The notes below the pieces were generated by a model. The model had not been told where the DNA came from and did not search any database. It was given only the letters and a program-made list of their open reading frames with translations. Below are positions 11,358 through 31,184 of a stretch of 64,000 bases of DNA, one piece after another. The translations under genes were made by a program, and so were the position numbers. The DNA is taken from contig JAFVTQ010000001.1 in assembly GCA_017503135.1 (NCBI GenBank), positions 186,001 to 250,000 of the forward strand. The letters run 5' to 3'. This DNA comes from Clostridia bacterium. GTDB lineage: Bacteria > Bacillota > Clostridia > Oscillospirales > Acutalibacteraceae. Numbering within the stretch: the stretch's first letter is position 1; each line of letters begins with the position of its first letter.

Positions 11358-11389
11358 AAAAAAGCACGGTGAAAACACCGTGCTTTTTT
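11358..11389. terminator. bidirectional terminator
   Basis: A 14-base perfect stem (11358-11371 with 11376-11389) around an AAAA loop, with A-run on the left and T-run on the right, so it can stop transcription from both the XRE gene and the convergent SCP2/transketolase operon. Confidence 0.9.
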
Positions 11390-11401: not shown

Positions 11402-12208
11402 TTATTTTGCCAATGCGCCAACCTCAAGCATAAATCCGCCGAGCTGTGCACCGAATTCAGGGCCGCCCTCCATAATAAGCTTACCTGATTTTGTTGATTC
11501 AAGCATATCGTCTGTGCTTAAAAGAATTCCAAGTGCTGATTCAAGGCAGTTGAAACGAAGTGTGAAGAAAGGCATTGCTCTCTTGTATTCGCCACGACCT
11601 GCTCTTGACTTACCTGCTTTGATACGGATGAAAGCAGAAACCTCAGGATGACCGTCGACTGCAAAAGCATAAACACGGTCAGGACTCTTTGTAGTCCAAT
11701 CCTTAATTTCAGGATGACCTAATTTGTTAAGCTGACTGATACCGCTTGAAAGGAGATAGAAGAAGCATTTAACCATAAGTACCTGTGTTTCTTCGTCCTT
11801 TGGTGCAGCAGTAGCGCCTGTAAGTGCTGAAAGTTTAAGAAGTGTCATAAGCATTGCCTTGAATGCACCAAAGCTCTTGAAAACACCCTTCATTTTAGGA
11901 AGTGTGGATGGTCCCATCTTGCCCTTGAAGAAGCCGTTCATTGCTTCAATAGTTTTGAATTCAAGCTCAACATCAGGTGTTTCGTGTGCAGAGTCAAGCT
12001 TTGTTTCCCATTCGCCATCAGTAATGATGAAATGAGTAGCATATTTTCCGCCTGGAGCATCAGCATCAAGTGCACTTACTTGAAGCACTGCATTCATACC
12101 ATCAAACTGTTTTTTAAGTGATGGTACATCATTAGCGATAACTTTCAAAAGTGGCAATGCAGCATTGAAAAATATTTTTGATGCATAAAGTTCATTTTGT
12201 TCGTGCAT
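11402..12208 (-). CDS. double SCP2-type (sterol-carrier-like) lipid-binding protein
   Basis: 268-residue soluble protein, last gene of the five-gene operon. It has two copies of an SCP2-like pattern. The first (about 68-120) reads HFIITDGEW, PDVELEFKTIEAMNGFFKGK, then LPKMKG. The second (about 180-265) reads FAVDGH, FFTLRFNCLESALGILLS, then SGKLIMEGGPEFGAQLG. In SCP2 proteins this arrangement builds a hydrophobic tunnel for sterols, fatty acyl chains or other lipids. No signal peptide is seen. AAAGAGAG precedes the ATG. It resembles the first gene of the operon in architecture but not closely in sequence. Ligand unknown; the SCP2 call is by pattern and should be tested by profile search. Confidence 0.7.
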   Translation of the reverse strand: MHEQNELYASKIFFNAALPLLKVIANDVPSLKKQFDGMNAVLQVSALDADAPGGKYATHFIITDGEWETKLDSAHETPDVELEFKTIEAMNGFFKGKMGPSTLPKMKGVFKSFGAFKAMLMTLLKLSALTGATAAPKDEETQVLMVKCFFYLLSSGISQLNKLGHPEIKDWTTKSPDRVYAFAVDGHPEVSAFIRIKAGKSRAGRGEYKRAMPFFTLRFNCLESALGILLSTDDMLESTKSGKLIMEGGPEFGAQLGGFMLEVGALAK

Positions 12209-12245
12209 ATTATCAACTCTCTTTCTGAATGATTTGGTTTAAAGA

Positions 12246-13253
12246 TTAAACTTCATCATCCCAGTTGTCGTCTTCTTCAAAGTCTGCATTCATCATTTCA
12301 CGAACGGATGCGACAATGCCGTTAGCGTCAATACCTGCATCAGCCATAATGTCTTCTTGAAGACCAATCATAGCAAAGCTCTTATGACCGAGCATCTTGA
12401 ATGCACAGCCCTTACCATACTGAGCCATAACTTCAGCAACTGCTGAGCCAAGACCGCCAGTTACAAGATGGTCTTCAACTGTTACGATTCTTCTTGTATC
12501 AGAAATTGCTTTCTGGATTGCCTCAACGTCGATTGGGCTGATTGTGTGCATATTAAGAACGCGAACTGAAAGTCCGTCATTTTTCTTAAGGAAGTCAGCA
12601 GCTTGTTTTGCCTGGAATACGCAAGAACCACAAGCGATAACTGTAATATCAGTACCTTCACAGATTTCTACTGCCTTACCAACTTCAAAGCCGTAATCCT
12701 GATTTTCATAAAGAACACGGTCAAAACCACGGTTGATACGGATATAGTAAGGACCAAAGTTTTCATAAGCAGCGTTAACTGCGTTTGCAGTTTCAAAACC
12801 GTCTGCAGGAACGATAACTGTAAGGTTAGGCATTGCTCTTGTGATAGCAAGGTCAGTAATAGCGTGGTGTGTTGAACCTGCCTGACCGAATGATGTACCT
12901 GAGTGAGTAGCAATAATCTTTGCGTTAACATTCTGGTAGCAAATGTCTGTGTGAAGCTGGTCACAAGCACGCATTGATGTGAATGCAGAGAAACCTGAAA
13001 GGAAAGGAATCATACCTGCTCTTGCCATACCTGCTGCAACACCGAACATATCCTGTTCTGCGATACCAACGTTAACAACTCTTTCAGGGCAAACTTTCAA
13101 AACGTCACCGAGTTTTGTTGATTTTGCAAGGTCAGCTGTGATAGCTACAACCTTTGTGTCTTTCATAATGATATCAGCGAGTGCTTTACCATAAATTTCA
13201 GCTGTTGAAAGCGCAGTTTGGTCAACTGCTGTATAAACAAATCCGCCTGCCAT
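12246..13253 (-). CDS. transketolase, C-terminal subunit
   Basis: 335-residue subunit carrying the pyrimidine-binding and C-terminal domains of a split, thiamine-diphosphate-dependent transketolase. The catalytic Glu that activates the cofactor is in VNVGIAEQDMFGVAAGMA; the substrate/cofactor loop is GQAGSTHHAITDLAI, and the C-terminal domain runs from about residue 195 (ITVIACGSCVFQA). It lies 2 bases after the N-terminal subunit with AAGGAGGG before its ATG. Split transketolases are common in Clostridia, but here both halves sit in an operon with two SCP2-like proteins and an aminotransferase rather than with pentose phosphate genes. This makes a specialised two-carbon transfer or cleavage reaction possible. 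Confidence 0.88.
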   Translation of the reverse strand: MAGGFVYTAVDQTALSTAEIYGKALADIIMKDTKVVAITADLAKSTKLGDVLKVCPERVVNVGIAEQDMFGVAAGMARAGMIPFLSGFSAFTSMRACDQLHTDICYQNVNAKIIATHSGTSFGQAGSTHHAITDLAITRAMPNLTVIVPADGFETANAVNAAYENFGPYYIRINRGFDRVLYENQDYGFEVGKAVEICEGTDITVIACGSCVFQAKQAADFLKKNDGLSVRVLNMHTISPIDVEAIQKAISDTRRIVTVEDHLVTGGLGSAVAEVMAQYGKGCAFKMLGHKSFAMIGLQEDIMADAGIDANGIVASVREMMNADFEEDDNWDDEV

Positions 13254-13255
13254 AA

Positions 13256-14137
13256 TTATTTGCCCTCCTTCTCTGCTCTTGCAACACGAGCTGCATAGTC
13301 TTCATCAAGTTCTTTGTTGAACTTTTCAAAGAGTGCATCGTCGATTGCGCCATAGTGCCATGTGTAGTCGCCTTCGATTGACTTGATACCAGCGCCTTTC
13401 TTTGTATCCATAAGAATACAAGTTGGAGCCTGTGGTGTTTTTGCTCTTTCAATAGCAACATCAATAGCATCGCAAAGTTCACCGATATTGTTACCGTCAA
13501 CAACGATTGTGTTGAAACCGAATGCTGTCATTTTGTCAGCAAGTGGTTCAAGCTTCTTAACATCTTCTGTGTTACCGTCAATCATATTGTGGTTACGATC
13601 GATAAATACGATACAGTTAGAAAGCTGATAGTGGTTGATTGTCATAAAACCTTCCCAGCATGAGCCTTCGTCAAGTTCACCGTCACCAGTAACAACGTAT
13701 GTAAGGAAATCCTTATTCATAAGTTTTGCTGCAAGTGCTGTACCTGCTGCGATTGATGGGCCGTGACCAAGAGAGCCTGTTGAAGCGTCAACGCCTACAA
13801 CTTTGTTTGAGTCAAGGTGCATACCCATTTTTGAACCTGAAAGGTTGAATGATTTGAGCATTTCAACATCGTTGAAACCTTTGTCACAAAGAACAGGAGC
13901 ATAAGCGATTGCTGCGTGACCCTTTGAAAGAATAAATCTGTCACGGTCGTCCCATTTTGGTTCGTCAACTTTAATGTTGAGATATTTGTGATAAAGAACT
14001 GTGAGAAGGTCCATAACACTCATACCGCCGCCGAAGTGTCCGCTACCTGCCCAAACTGTTGTTTGAACGCAGAGTTTACGAAGGTCGAGGGCTTTCTTTT
14101 CGAGTGCAAGCCATTCTGCTTTTGATAAATTAGCCAT
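13256..14137 (-). CDS. transketolase, N-terminal (diphosphate-binding) subunit
   Basis: 293-residue subunit. The N terminus has GSGHFGGGMSVMDLL and the phosphate-binding region DRFILSKGHAAIAYAP. The thiamine-diphosphate/Mg motif runs from GDGELDEGSCWEG to DRNHNMIDG, with the usual spacing. It must pair with the C-terminal subunit encoded directly downstream. CTTGGAGGG precedes the ATG. A strong GC-rich hairpin lies in the gap between it and the upstream aminotransferase. The steroid-17,20-desmolase DesAB of Clostridium scindens is also a two-subunit transketolase-family enzyme, so family membership alone does not show a sugar substrate. Confidence 0.88.
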   Translation of the reverse strand: MANLSKAEWLALEKKALDLRKLCVQTTVWAGSGHFGGGMSVMDLLTVLYHKYLNIKVDEPKWDDRDRFILSKGHAAIAYAPVLCDKGFNDVEMLKSFNLSGSKMGMHLDSNKVVGVDASTGSLGHGPSIAAGTALAAKLMNKDFLTYVVTGDGELDEGSCWEGFMTINHYQLSNCIVFIDRNHNMIDGNTEDVKKLEPLADKMTAFGFNTIVVDGNNIGELCDAIDVAIERAKTPQAPTCILMDTKKGAGIKSIEGDYTWHYGAIDDALFEKFNKELDEDYAARVARAEKEGK

Positions 14138-14166
14138 AATTTTCCCTCCAAGAAAATTTTATTAGA

Positions 14167-14186
14167 AGCGGGGTCCCCACCCCGCT
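14167..14186 (-). other. intercistronic GC-rich hairpin
   Basis: AGCGGGGT (14167-14174) and ACCCCGCT (14179-14186) form a perfect 8-base stem with a CCCC loop, between the aminotransferase and transketolase genes. It has no U-run on the transcribed strand, so it is more likely an mRNA-stability or processing element than a terminator. Confidence 0.6.
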
Positions 14187-14199
14187 ATAATTTATTTAA

Positions 14200-15468
14200 T
14201 TAGCCTCTAAGCTCTGGGTGATTTTTTGCAACTACTGAGAATGCATCTTCTGCAATTTCAATAGACTTCTTAATGTCTTCTTCTGTAAGAGATGCGTTTA
14301 TGAAGTGGTTGTGGTGAGATGTGATAAACAAACCGCGGTTAACACATTCTGCAACCCATTCTTGATGAAGCATAAGGTTGTCATCGTTAGCAATTCTTAA
14401 ATAGAAGAGTGCAGGTTCACCTGAAACTTTAAGGTCAAAGCCGTGTTCTGCACCAGCTGCAACGAAACCGTCAGTAACCATCTTACCAAGACGACGGAAC
14501 ATTGTTGGTGTGTCAAGAGCTTTCATCTTGTTGATACAAGCGATACAAGCTGCGAAAGGAACAGAGCTGAGCCAATATGAACCTGTGTATGTAATACCTG
14601 AAACAGTTGCTTTCATATGCTCGCCACCGCAAAGTGCTGACATATTGTAACCGTTAGCGAGTGCTTTACAGAAGCAGATAAGGTCTGCTTTGAAACCATA
14701 ATAGTGGTCAGAACCTGCAAGGTCAAGACGGAAACCTGCGCGAACGTCGTCAATGATAAGAACAACACCGTGGTCGTCACACCATTTACGAACTGCTTGC
14801 CAGTATTCTTTTGAAGCAACTTCGTTGTCTTTGAAGTTACCGTGGTCATAAGGCTGAGCGATAAGACCAGCAATATCACCGTTGTTGTCGTCATATGCTT
14901 TCTGAAGAGCATCAAGGTCAAACCAAGGACAGATAATGTTGTTTGCTACGTCTTCAGGAGTGATACCTGGGTAGTCAATTTTCTGTGCCCATGGGAAATC
15001 TCCGTGGTAGTAGTATTTTAAGAAGATAATCTTCTTTTTATGTGTATGTGCTCTTGCTGCCATTGTTGCAAGTGTTGTTGTGTCTGAACCATTCTTGCAG
15101 AAGAAAGCCCAGTCAGCAGAAGCAACTGTATCAACAAGTGTTTCTGCACATTCAACCATAACCTTTCCAGGTGCAGTTGTGCAGTTACCGAGTTTTAATT
15201 GTGCAAGTGCAGCAGCGTCAACGTCAGGGTCATTATAACCTAAAACGTTAGGACCATAAGCACACATATAGTCAATGTATTTGTTGCCGTCAACGTCCCA
15301 GAAATATGAGCCCTGTGCTTTTTCTGCGAAAGATGGCCATCTGTTAACAGGAATCCACTGACCTTCAGCAGGACCTAAGTGACCATAAATACCTGATGGA
15401 ATAACCTTTGTTGCACGGTTAAACATCTCACGGCTTTTTGTGGTATCGTATAATGGGAATTTACTCAT
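14200..15468 (-). CDS. class III aminotransferase (glutamate-1-semialdehyde aminomutase-like)
   Basis: 422-residue PLP enzyme of fold type I. Recognisable parts are the entry region YFWDVDGNKYIDYMCAYGPN, the phosphate-binding FCKNGSDTTTLATMAARAHT, the PLP-nitrogen Asp in LIIDDVRAGFRLD, and the Schiff-base Lys in DLICFCKALANGYNMSALCG. It most resembles glutamate-1-semialdehyde aminomutases and sugar-type class III transaminases. No haem biosynthesis gene is near, and the motif carries DDVRAG where HemL has DEVMTG, so a HemL role is unlikely. AAGGAGG precedes the ATG. In context it may aminate a product or substrate of the transketolase; this is inference. Confidence 0.8.
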   Translation of the reverse strand: MSKFPLYDTTKSREMFNRATKVIPSGIYGHLGPAEGQWIPVNRWPSFAEKAQGSYFWDVDGNKYIDYMCAYGPNVLGYNDPDVDAAALAQLKLGNCTTAPGKVMVECAETLVDTVASADWAFFCKNGSDTTTLATMAARAHTHKKKIIFLKYYYHGDFPWAQKIDYPGITPEDVANNIICPWFDLDALQKAYDDNNGDIAGLIAQPYDHGNFKDNEVASKEYWQAVRKWCDDHGVVLIIDDVRAGFRLDLAGSDHYYGFKADLICFCKALANGYNMSALCGGEHMKATVSGITYTGSYWLSSVPFAACIACINKMKALDTPTMFRRLGKMVTDGFVAAGAEHGFDLKVSGEPALFYLRIANDDNLMLHQEWVAECVNRGLFITSHHNHFINASLTEEDIKKSIEIAEDAFSVVAKNHPELRG

Positions 15469-15482
15469 TGTTAGTGTCCTCC

Positions 15483-16247
15483 TTATGCTAAATACAATGC
15501 AACTCTGTCAAGAATACGGTTTACATTGTCAACCATTGAGATAAGGCCACGGATTGTGATATTACCATTACCTACATGGTCGATTGAGTTAACTGTACCT
15601 GCGAAAAGTGCATTTGCAAGTTCGATGTCGCAGAATTCCATAATTGCACGAGGTTTGTCAGAAGCTTGCTTGATTGTAATAAGATGATTATCTTTAACAC
15701 GGATAGTAGCATAAACTGTGTCTGTGATACCAATCTGAATATCACCGTCAACGATGTTTGATGCACTGAATTTACCGATTGCATCTTGATTACCAATCTG
15801 TGAAATAGCAACTGAAACTGTATAGAATGTGCAGAGAGTGTTAAGACGGAAGAAATCAGCATCTTTAAGTGCTTCTTCTGATGGTCTCATAACTTCTGTG
15901 AGTCTGTCAGTAAGTGCTGTGAATGTCTTTAAAAGGAAGTTAACCTTTGTAAGACCCTTTGTTGGAATTGGTGTAACTTTGCCGTCAATAATTCCGTTGA
16001 ACTTATCACAGTTAGCAACAGGGATTTTGATGTCGCAATCAGCTTTAACGCCATCGTCCATACGGCAACCGTTTTTAGAGAATGTGAGTGTAGCGCTTGG
16101 GCCACCTTTAACATCGAAAGCCACTGAAATTGGTTTTTCAATAGTAGAAATAATTTCTTTAGCTTTTTCGTCGAGTTCACAAAGGTTTTCCAATGTGCCG
16201 AGAACAGCATACATATTTATGTAAGCCAATGTTCTTGAATCAGTCAT
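15483..16247 (-). CDS. double SCP2-type (sterol-carrier-like) lipid-binding protein, operon leader
   Basis: 254-residue soluble protein, first gene of the operon, with GAAGGAGG before its ATG. Two SCP2-like units are visible: VAFDVKGGPSATLTF with CDIKIPVANCDKFNGIIDGK (about 40-100), and ATIRVKDNHLITIK with AIMEFCDIELANALFAGT followed by GNGNITIRGLISMVDNVNRI (about 180-250). A helical stretch (FLLKTFTALTDRLTEVM) separates them. The same double architecture recurs in the last gene of the operon, so the two may form a heterodimer or shuttle different ligands. No signal peptide or membrane anchor is visible. No function is assigned beyond likely binding of a hydrophobic ligand. Confidence 0.68.
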   Translation of the reverse strand: MTDSRTLAYINMYAVLGTLENLCELDEKAKEIISTIEKPISVAFDVKGGPSATLTFSKNGCRMDDGVKADCDIKIPVANCDKFNGIIDGKVTPIPTKGLTKVNFLLKTFTALTDRLTEVMRPSEEALKDADFFRLNTLCTFYTVSVAISQIGNQDAIGKFSASNIVDGDIQIGITDTVYATIRVKDNHLITIKQASDKPRAIMEFCDIELANALFAGTVNSIDHVGNGNITIRGLISMVDNVNRILDRVALYLA

Positions 16248-29693: not shown

Positions 29694-31172
29694 TTATAGG
29701 ATTATGCACAAAAGACCATTGCAGCCTTCGTTGATAACTCGTTCAAGAGTTTCTTGGAATTTCATACGAGCATCAGTTGGCATATGATAAAGTTTGTTGC
29801 GAAGTCCTTCATTAACAAGCTCGTTAAGAGATTTGCCAAAAATATTTGACTCCCAGATTTTATTAGGGTCTTCTTCAAAGCCTTCAAGCAAATATTTCAC
29901 AAGTTCTTCTGACTGACTTTCACTGCCAACTATTGGGGCAACTTCGGTCTGGATATTAGCTTTGAGCAGGTGAATTGACGGTGCGGAAGCAGAAAGCCTT
30001 ACGCCATAACGACCGCCTTGTTTCACTATTTCAGGTTCTTCAAGGCTTAACTCTGAAAGTGTCGGCATAACAATACCATAGCCCGTTGTTTCAACCTCAT
30101 CAAGAGCAGATTTTATTCGTGCATATTCTTTTTTAATGCCCGATAATTCTTTAAGACAAGATAACAAACTTTGTTCGCTGTCGATTGAAAGTCCTGTTTC
30201 TTCTTCAAGAATTTTATAGAATAAACCGTTGTTCATCTGAACTGAAAGCCACGCACTACCGATACTCAAATCCATATTTTTGATTTTTGCACCTGCAATA
30301 TGCTCACATTCGCAAAGACTTTCGGTCATAATGCTGATGTCACGGACAAACTCGATATTTTCTATGGACTCTAATACATACTTATATGTTTCTGCTTTTA
30401 ACCAGTGGTCCTGTGGCAAAGACACCAACCATAAGGGCAAGTCAACACCAATTTCTTTGACGGGAAATTCAAAAAGAATCTGAGTGATGATTTCTTTGAT
30501 TTCTTGCTCACGAAGTTCAAGACAATTAACAGCCATAACGGGCACGCGATATTTTGCCGACAACTCGTTGCAAAGAGATTGTGCACTTTCACCGTTAGGG
30601 TACATACAGTTGAGCAATACCACAAAAGGCTTGTTAAGCTCTTTTAACTCATTGATAACCCGCTCTTCAGCTTCTTCGTATTCGTCACGGGGGATATCGC
30701 TGATGCTTCCGTCAGTTGTAACAACTAACCCGATTGTTGAATGCTCGGTAATAACCTTTTTTGTGCCGATTTCGGCCGCCATATTAAATGGAATTTCGTT
30801 TTCATACCAAGGTGTGCGCACCATTCGAGGCTGGTCACCCTCGATATATCCCAACGAGCTTGGAACAATATAACCAACACAGTCAATCATTCTCACATTG
30901 AAACTTGCGTTGTCGGGCAATGTGATTTTAACTGCGTTTTCAGGAATAAATTTTGGCTCGGTTGTCATAATAGTGCGCCCCGCAGAAGATTGGGGCAACT
31001 CGTCATTTGCTCTTTCTCGCATAGCGTCGTTTTCCATATTCGGAAGCACAACGCAGTCCATAAACTTTTTGATAAATGTGGATTTTCCTGTTCTCACAGG
31101 GCCAACCACACCAATATAAATATCTCCACCCGTACGCACGGCAATATCGTTATAAATGCTTGTGTTACTCAT
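29694..31172 (-). CDS. spoIVA: stage IV sporulation protein A (spore coat/cortex ATPase)
   Basis: 492-residue ATPase that polymerises on the forespore outer surface as the base of the spore coat and is needed for cortex. The P-loop is GVVGPVRTGKSTFIKKF near residue 25, followed by the TRAFAC-like switch region MIDCVGYIVPSSLGYIEGD and LLNCMYPNGESA. The long middle and C-terminal domains end in INEGCNGLLCIIL. An upstream GTG (31181) is possible, but AAGGGGTG six bases before the ATG at 31172 fixes the start, giving 492 residues, the length I recall for the Bacillus subtilis protein. It lies 12 bases after the SPOCS-LysM gene and is transcribed with it. Confidence 0.96.
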   Translation of the reverse strand: MSNTSIYNDIAVRTGGDIYIGVVGPVRTGKSTFIKKFMDCVVLPNMENDAMRERANDELPQSSAGRTIMTTEPKFIPENAVKITLPDNASFNVRMIDCVGYIVPSSLGYIEGDQPRMVRTPWYENEIPFNMAAEIGTKKVITEHSTIGLVVTTDGSISDIPRDEYEEAEERVINELKELNKPFVVLLNCMYPNGESAQSLCNELSAKYRVPVMAVNCLELREQEIKEIITQILFEFPVKEIGVDLPLWLVSLPQDHWLKAETYKYVLESIENIEFVRDISIMTESLCECEHIAGAKIKNMDLSIGSAWLSVQMNNGLFYKILEEETGLSIDSEQSLLSCLKELSGIKKEYARIKSALDEVETTGYGIVMPTLSELSLEEPEIVKQGGRYGVRLSASAPSIHLLKANIQTEVAPIVGSESQSEELVKYLLEGFEEDPNKIWESNIFGKSLNELVNEGLRNKLYHMPTDARMKFQETLERVINEGCNGLLCIIL

Positions 31173-31184
31173 TTTCTTCACCCC

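Follow-up and report, generated by a model that had tools for sequence, protein, structure and literature searches.

The window analysed here is a 64,000-nucleotide stretch of contig JAFVTQ010000001.1 from the Clostridia bacterium assembly GCA_017503135.1 (1.2 Mb, 75% complete). At 11402-16247 it contains an operon of five minus-strand genes that encode, in order, a double-SCP2 protein (SCP2-1, here S1), a class III aminotransferase (AT), the N- and C-terminal halves of a split transketolase (TKN and TKC), and a second double-SCP2 protein (SCP2-2, here S2). We predict that these genes encode a two-module lipid pathway in which the transketolase with S2, and then AT with S1, may form a sphingoid base; we give this reading a probability of roughly 0.4. 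Somewhat more tentative is the fuller proposal that this is a natural sphingoid-base route independent of serine palmitoyltransferase (SPT), that each of its enzymes has a double-SCP2 carrier of its own, and that it occurs in lineages of Clostridia in which no SPT was found.

In the proposed pathway, the TKN-TKC-S2 module would act first, with an acceptor site that appears to be changed for a non-hydroxylated aldehyde. S2 would present a fatty aldehyde, and the transketolase would add a two-carbon ketol unit to give a long-chain 1,3-dihydroxy-2-ketone (1,3-dihydroxyalkan-2-one). S1 would present this ketone to AT, which would aminate C2 with an amino donor to form a long-chain 2-amino-1,3-diol, a sphinganine-type sphingoid base. 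The transketolase module could then stand in for SPT and 3-ketosphinganine reductase. SPT is treated as the entry point to sphingoid bases and as the genomic marker of sphingolipid producers. If the prediction is correct, gut and rumen bacteria would have a second entry (or an exit without sphingosine-1-phosphate lyase), producers or degraders of sphingolipids would have escaped notice, and there could be consequences for host ceramide levels.

To the extent that the literature was searched, neither the gene set nor the proposed pathway has been described. There is no account of this operon among the matches listed, which come from mostly open-access literature with few subscription papers covered, and the claim of an earlier sequence-only reading that no described pathway has this gene set stands for the open literature searched. 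The available part of a text on sphingoid bases mentions no transamination (PMC11765627). Four of the five genes belong to known Pfam families or have relatives there, and S2 has a known fold.

Conservation of the operon and a transketolase with changed acceptor residues

Conservation of the five-gene order, on which the sequence-only reading had made its proposal depend, is clear among the closest relatives. With an alignment of S1 we searched 84,980 species, each represented by a single genome; 445 relatives were confirmed, and we examined the best 80 of these 445. S1-AT-TKN-TKC-S2 is present in the same order and on the same strand in 67 of the 80, and 12 of the remaining 13 loci are cut by the end of the contig or locus. 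The last, L080 (9001-11026), encodes S1-AT with no transketolase within 7.7 kb downstream, in a lineage that otherwise has all five genes. Uncultured Clostridia make up the nearest named relatives; some carry the label Oscillospiraceae or Ruminococcaceae, and many were sampled from gut or rumen. Of the genomes sampled, 7 of 147 and 23 of 394 from the order and 3 of 391 from the class contain S1 (own genome counted), so the five-gene system is not general. Viral contigs contained no S1 relative.

The operon is also set apart by its codon usage. Among 46 mechanically picked open reading frames (ORFs) of the window, each of at least 150 amino acids, the five genes rank 1 to 5 for the share of C-ending codons for Phe, Tyr, His, Asn, and Asp (0.51-0.73; the next ORF has 0.50). 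At least four flanking ORFs are available for 58 of the 67 five-gene loci; in 57 of these 58 the mean of the operon is above that of the flanks, and in 32 it is above every single flanking ORF. This bias suggests that the operon genes are strongly expressed.

The best solved relatives of TKN and TKC are 6yak (1.7e-58) and 6yaj (4e-68), the Carboxydothermus hydrogenoformans transketolase, which is split identically (PMC7661550; this and the other papers cited are represented by the parts available). The R358 and D469 positions (E. coli numbers) are still Arg and Asp in that enzyme, but not in the operon enzyme. Across 74 distinct operon-type TKC sequences (at least 55% identical to that of the window), the D469 position is invariably Ala, and the R358 position is Ala in 59, Ser in 14, Thr in one, and Arg in none. 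The R91 position is Asn in all 82 operon-type TKN sequences. Arg358, Asp469, and Arg91, the acceptor residues of the pentose-phosphate type, are thus all replaced in the operon enzyme; the ThDP-site (thiamine diphosphate) Glu and the catalytic His are kept throughout (74/74 TKC, 82/82 TKN). The placements of R358 and R91, and the yeast labels used below, are those we take to be standard. Residue labels were mapped by motif, and the G467, D469, G470, and T472 sites (PMC3657141) fit a GEDG-T motif.

Changes at D469 of E. coli transketolase raise activity with propionaldehyde and allow linear aliphatic aldehydes to be accepted; the variants form 1,3-dihydroxypentan-2-one, and D469Y reverses the stereochemistry (PMC3657141). 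In the E. coli enzyme D469 is salt-bridged to R91 (PMC5073344). The operon enzyme is changed at the D469 position and at that of its salt-bridge partner together. Cascades of transketolase and transaminase are reportedly a laboratory route to amino-diols (PMC5813273). The engineered D469 variants and cascades share with the operon the altered residue and the two reaction types, which lead to short amino-diols (PMC3657141, PMC5073344), but they are man-made and use short or aromatic aldehydes, whereas the operon is natural, probably acts on long chains, and includes SCP2 proteins. If the prediction is correct, the operon would be a natural version of the chemists' cascades, with a change at exactly the residue picked for engineering.

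Of 39 genomes from the genus, own genome counted, 36 carry an operon-type TKN (at least 70% identity), and 34 of these 36 encode another TKN that is 39-45% identical and presumably belongs to the housekeeping transketolase. The two without it are the own genome and G158, both 74-75% complete; the single copy in the own genome can be explained by its 75% completeness. All 11 second copies that were fetched, of the 34, have Arg, Asp, and Arg at the R358, D469, and R91 positions. Judged by these comparisons, the operon transketolase is a dedicated second copy, and we reject its assignment as the housekeeping enzyme because of the second split N half in 34 of the 36 carriers. The sequence-only reading suggested that the transketolase may act on a hydrophobic molecule, and a dedicated transketolase that probably does so is supported here.

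We also compared 14 other split transketolases from genomes of the family and order, in which the R358 position is Arg in 13 and a gap in one. A quick TKC tree was built from 22 representatives of the 74 operon-type sequences, these 14, two references, and four DXS sequences. The operon TKCs fall on one side of a weakly supported branch (58); 13 of the 14 others group with the solved Carboxydothermus and human enzymes, and one groups with DXS. A further split transketolase in G036 (L230:1234-2169) has Arg at the R358 position and Leu at the D469 position and is apparently another acceptor-site variant. At L065:9102-10978 and L067:11110-12986, TKN and TKC are 94-95% identical to those of the window, but S1, AT, and S2 there are only 61-72% identical. 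It looks as if operons have swapped their transketolase pair.

Aminotransferase, SCP2 proteins, and SPT

The best solved relative of AT is the aminopentol aminotransferase FumI (6hbs, E 2.2e-91), followed by GSAM (2.3e-41). AT and FumI are 38% identical over 409 amino acids, with the Lys of the FumI GKxFANGY motif aligning as the catalytic Lys, and seven S1-linked aminotransferases are 36-43% identical to FumI. FumI (6hbs/6hbv), a class III aminotransferase like AT, takes the amine from C2 of hydrolysed fumonisin B1 and passes it to pyruvate (PMC2933618), and fumonisins resemble sphinganine (PMC9858248). The known setting of FumI is the degradation of fumonisin by Sphingopyxis, whereas the substrate of AT is predicted from its sequence.

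Both flanking proteins contain the SCP2 fold twice, based on structural matches of the predicted models (S1 pLDDT, the predicted local distance difference test, 93.3; S2 pLDDT 92.4), which agrees with their double-SCP2 identity in the sequence-only reading. The matches extend over both halves of S2. The best matches of S1 include UbiJ (6h6o/6h6p), which has an SCP2 fold, and also the C-terminal SCP2-like domain of the alkylsulfatases SdsA1 and Pisa1. The PF02036 profile matches 40 of 51 members of the S1 family (E up to 1, best 5.7e-6), none of 45 members of the S2 family, and neither S1 nor S2 of the window itself. Profiles of S1 and S2 found nothing useful among the PDB sequences.

SCP2 folds bind many lipids, sterols among them. 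AT follows S1 in all seven S1-bearing genomes of the first order sample (own genome counted), and S2 adjoins an operon-type transketolase in all 13 S2-positive genomes among 23 other S1-positive genomes. We predict that S1 is probably a lipid presenter for AT, and S2 probably one for the transketolase. UbiJ is understood to play such a role for soluble enzymes, but it has one SCP2 domain and works in ubiquinone synthesis, an unrelated pathway.

S1-AT lies beside SPT and a KDSR-like short-chain dehydrogenase/reductase (SDR) in four genomes of two families. In G112 and G126, of a family other than that of the window, S1-AT is followed by an SPT-like gene and then the SDR; G705 and G679 have the arrangement SPT-KDSR-S1-AT. 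The SPT-like gene of G112 scores 536 bits with NF047600 (cut-off 640) and matches PDB 3a2b at 1.2e-129, and the G126 copy is 90% identical to it. In G112 and G126 the SDR is matched best by the 3-ketodihydrosphingosine reductase profile, at 229 and 221 bits against a cut-off of 400. SPT and KDSR are adjacent to each other and not beside S1-AT in G036, G041, G714, and G771, and G727 has SPT with no KDSR match in the stretch fetched. The two modules can also be apart, as in G052, where TKN-TKC-S2 is separate and S1-AT is on another contig.

The 23 other S1-positive genomes include 13 with S2, nine with SPT (called at 71% or more identity to the copy of G112, itself one of the nine), none with both, and one with neither (G496, locus L175, 94% complete, where S1-AT is present). 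With the SPT query, two of the 13 S2-positive genomes gave weak matches of 18-19 bits and 11 gave none; the 39 genomes of the genus gave 15 weak matches (best 24 bits), none like a real SPT. Four of the SPT genomes (G036, G041, G112, and G126) were searched for transketolase domains and contain no operon-type copy; for the other five (G679, G705, G714, G727, and G771) S2 and the fetched flanks were covered. S2 and SPT divide between 4 and 6 genera without overlap, and between 2 and 4 families.

The route through SPT and 3-ketosphinganine reductase would lead to the same product class as the one proposed here, and its genes adjoin S1-AT in the four genomes above. It differs in using acyl-CoA and serine, and SPT was not detected in the 39 genomes of the window's genus. 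A lipid of the sphingoid-base type is the better inference for the operon because AT is nearest to FumI and because SPT and KDSR-like SDR genes are its neighbours in other families. Amination to an amino-lipid, as the sequence-only reading had it, is the likeliest outcome.

Synthesis, breakdown, and other readings

We lean modestly towards synthesis over breakdown. In favour of synthesis are the exclusion with SPT, the near-constant presence in the genus, the codon bias, and the fact that none of the five genes encodes a transporter or regulator. The known direction of FumI and an aldehyde dehydrogenase in G052 speak for breakdown.

Breakdown of sphingoid bases from the diet, the host, or other bacteria is the strongest of the alternatives, although we consider it unlikely. 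AT would remove the C2 amine, and the transketolase would split the 1,3-dihydroxy-2-ketone to a fatty aldehyde and a C2 unit that passes to a sugar phosphate. FumI belongs to a catabolic pathway (PMC2933618), many of the best 80 of the 445 relatives were sampled from the gut or rumen of animals, and the gene directly after TKN-TKC-S2 in G052 (L172:5364-6734) is a class-3 aldehyde dehydrogenase that resembles the human fatty aldehyde dehydrogenase (5e-122). Breakdown fits less well with a set of five genes that includes no transporter, ceramidase, or regulator, with operon-type TKN in nearly every genome of the genus, and with the codon bias. The exclusion with SPT, a biosynthetic enzyme, and the location of S1-AT beside SPT in four genomes also fit synthesis better.

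Several points weigh against the synthesis of a sphingoid base by the operon. AT persists in SPT genomes although it is not needed there to make sphinganine, and this is the main weakness of synthesis. FumI acts in the deaminating direction, and the fatty-type aldehyde dehydrogenase of G052 fits breakdown. The acceptor site varies among the other split transketolases of the order: among the 14 compared, the D469 position is Asp in 10, Asn in two, and Leu in two, and the R91 position is Arg in eight, Asn in two, and Lys, Glu, Gly, and a gap in one each. The yeast S386, H469, and R528 positions, on the phosphate side, are kept in 74 of 74 operon-type TKCs, and one of the half-reactions therefore probably still involves a bound sugar phosphate. 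The exclusion between SPT and S2, counted among S1-positive genomes, rests on few lineages and is backed by few independent events because the split is only 2 versus 4 at the family level. G496 has neither S2 nor SPT, and the lack of SPT in G052 is weak evidence because that genome is only 60% complete. The substrates and product that we propose are predicted from comparisons of sequences and models only.

Less probable than breakdown is the possibility that the substrate is another hydrophobic aldehyde or ketone and the product a different amino-lipid. The broad lipid binding of SCP2 folds would allow this, and the genes downstream of S2 differ between lineages; the nearest characterised relative of AT and the SPT and KDSR neighbours, however, point to long-chain bases. 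Ordinary sugar chemistry, with a housekeeping or aminosugar transketolase and aminotransferase beside unrelated lipid proteins, is improbable. In its favour, the operon enzyme has the ThDP and catalytic residues of a transketolase, and the best NCBIfam profile for AT is GntE, though at 199 bits it is far under the 525-bit cut-off. Sugar chemistry is at odds with the second split TKN of the genus and its ordinary acceptor residues, with the invariable change of these residues in the operon copy, and with the conserved linkage to two SCP2 proteins.

A steroid side-chain lyase like DesAB is very improbable: DesAB is also a split transketolase of Clostridia repurposed for a lipid, and SCP2 domains can bind sterols, but it acts on cortisol, and the cortisol-inducible C. 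scindens operon has desC besides desAB and, in the available part of its description and as generally understood, no SCP2 or aminotransferase gene (PMC12876203). The operon of the window encodes no dehydrogenase; the sequence-only reading had already noted that a hydroxysteroid dehydrogenase is missing, and there is none among the five genes. Its sterol, bile, or desmolase direction finds no support, given the closeness of AT to FumI and the SPT and KDSR-like neighbours, and we set it aside without regarding it as disproved.

Gene layout and neighbouring genes

The positions and order of the tightly spaced genes are exactly as first read from the sequence. The gaps are 14 (S1-AT), 62 (AT-TKN), 2 (TKN-TKC), and 37 nucleotides (TKC-S2).

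Features of the operon and its flanking signals (window coordinates)
Feature	Position	Strand	Description
SCP2-1 (S1)	15483..16247	-	254 amino acids, double SCP2 fold, operon gene 1
AT	14200..15468	-	Class III pyridoxal phosphate (PLP) aminotransferase, FumI-like; PF00202 1.4e-36
Hairpin in the 62-nucleotide AT-TKN gap	14167..14186	. (scan lists + strand)	Perfect, GC-rich
TKN	13256..14137	-	Split transketolase, N-terminal (ThDP-binding) half; PF00456 8e-40
TKC	12246..13253	-	Split transketolase, C-terminal half; PF02779/PF02780
SCP2-2 (S2)	11402..12208	-	268 amino acids, double SCP2 fold, final gene of the operon
Intrinsic terminator 3' of S2	11358..11389	-	14-pair hairpin including A/T tract, T-run; read by eye

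The hairpin between AT and TKN may set the balance between the two modules, or it may be an RNA-processing site. The scan that reported it does not list the terminator hairpin of S2. The single strong promoter claimed by the sequence-only reading was not recovered, as a consensus scan gave nothing better than chance.

The variable genes 3' of S2 include one of about 430 amino acids that begins about 50 nucleotides after S2 in L045, L048, L053, L075, and L084. The L045 copy has no Pfam or PDB match, and its identification as an acyltransferase, a guess that neither database supports, was rejected. In L047, L055, L069-L071, L226, and L227, S2 is followed by a conserved gene of the NAD-dependent epimerase/dehydratase family. 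Elsewhere in the window, the ORF at 29694-31181 resembles, by eye, the spore-coat ATPase SpoIVA, which suggests that the bacterium forms spores.

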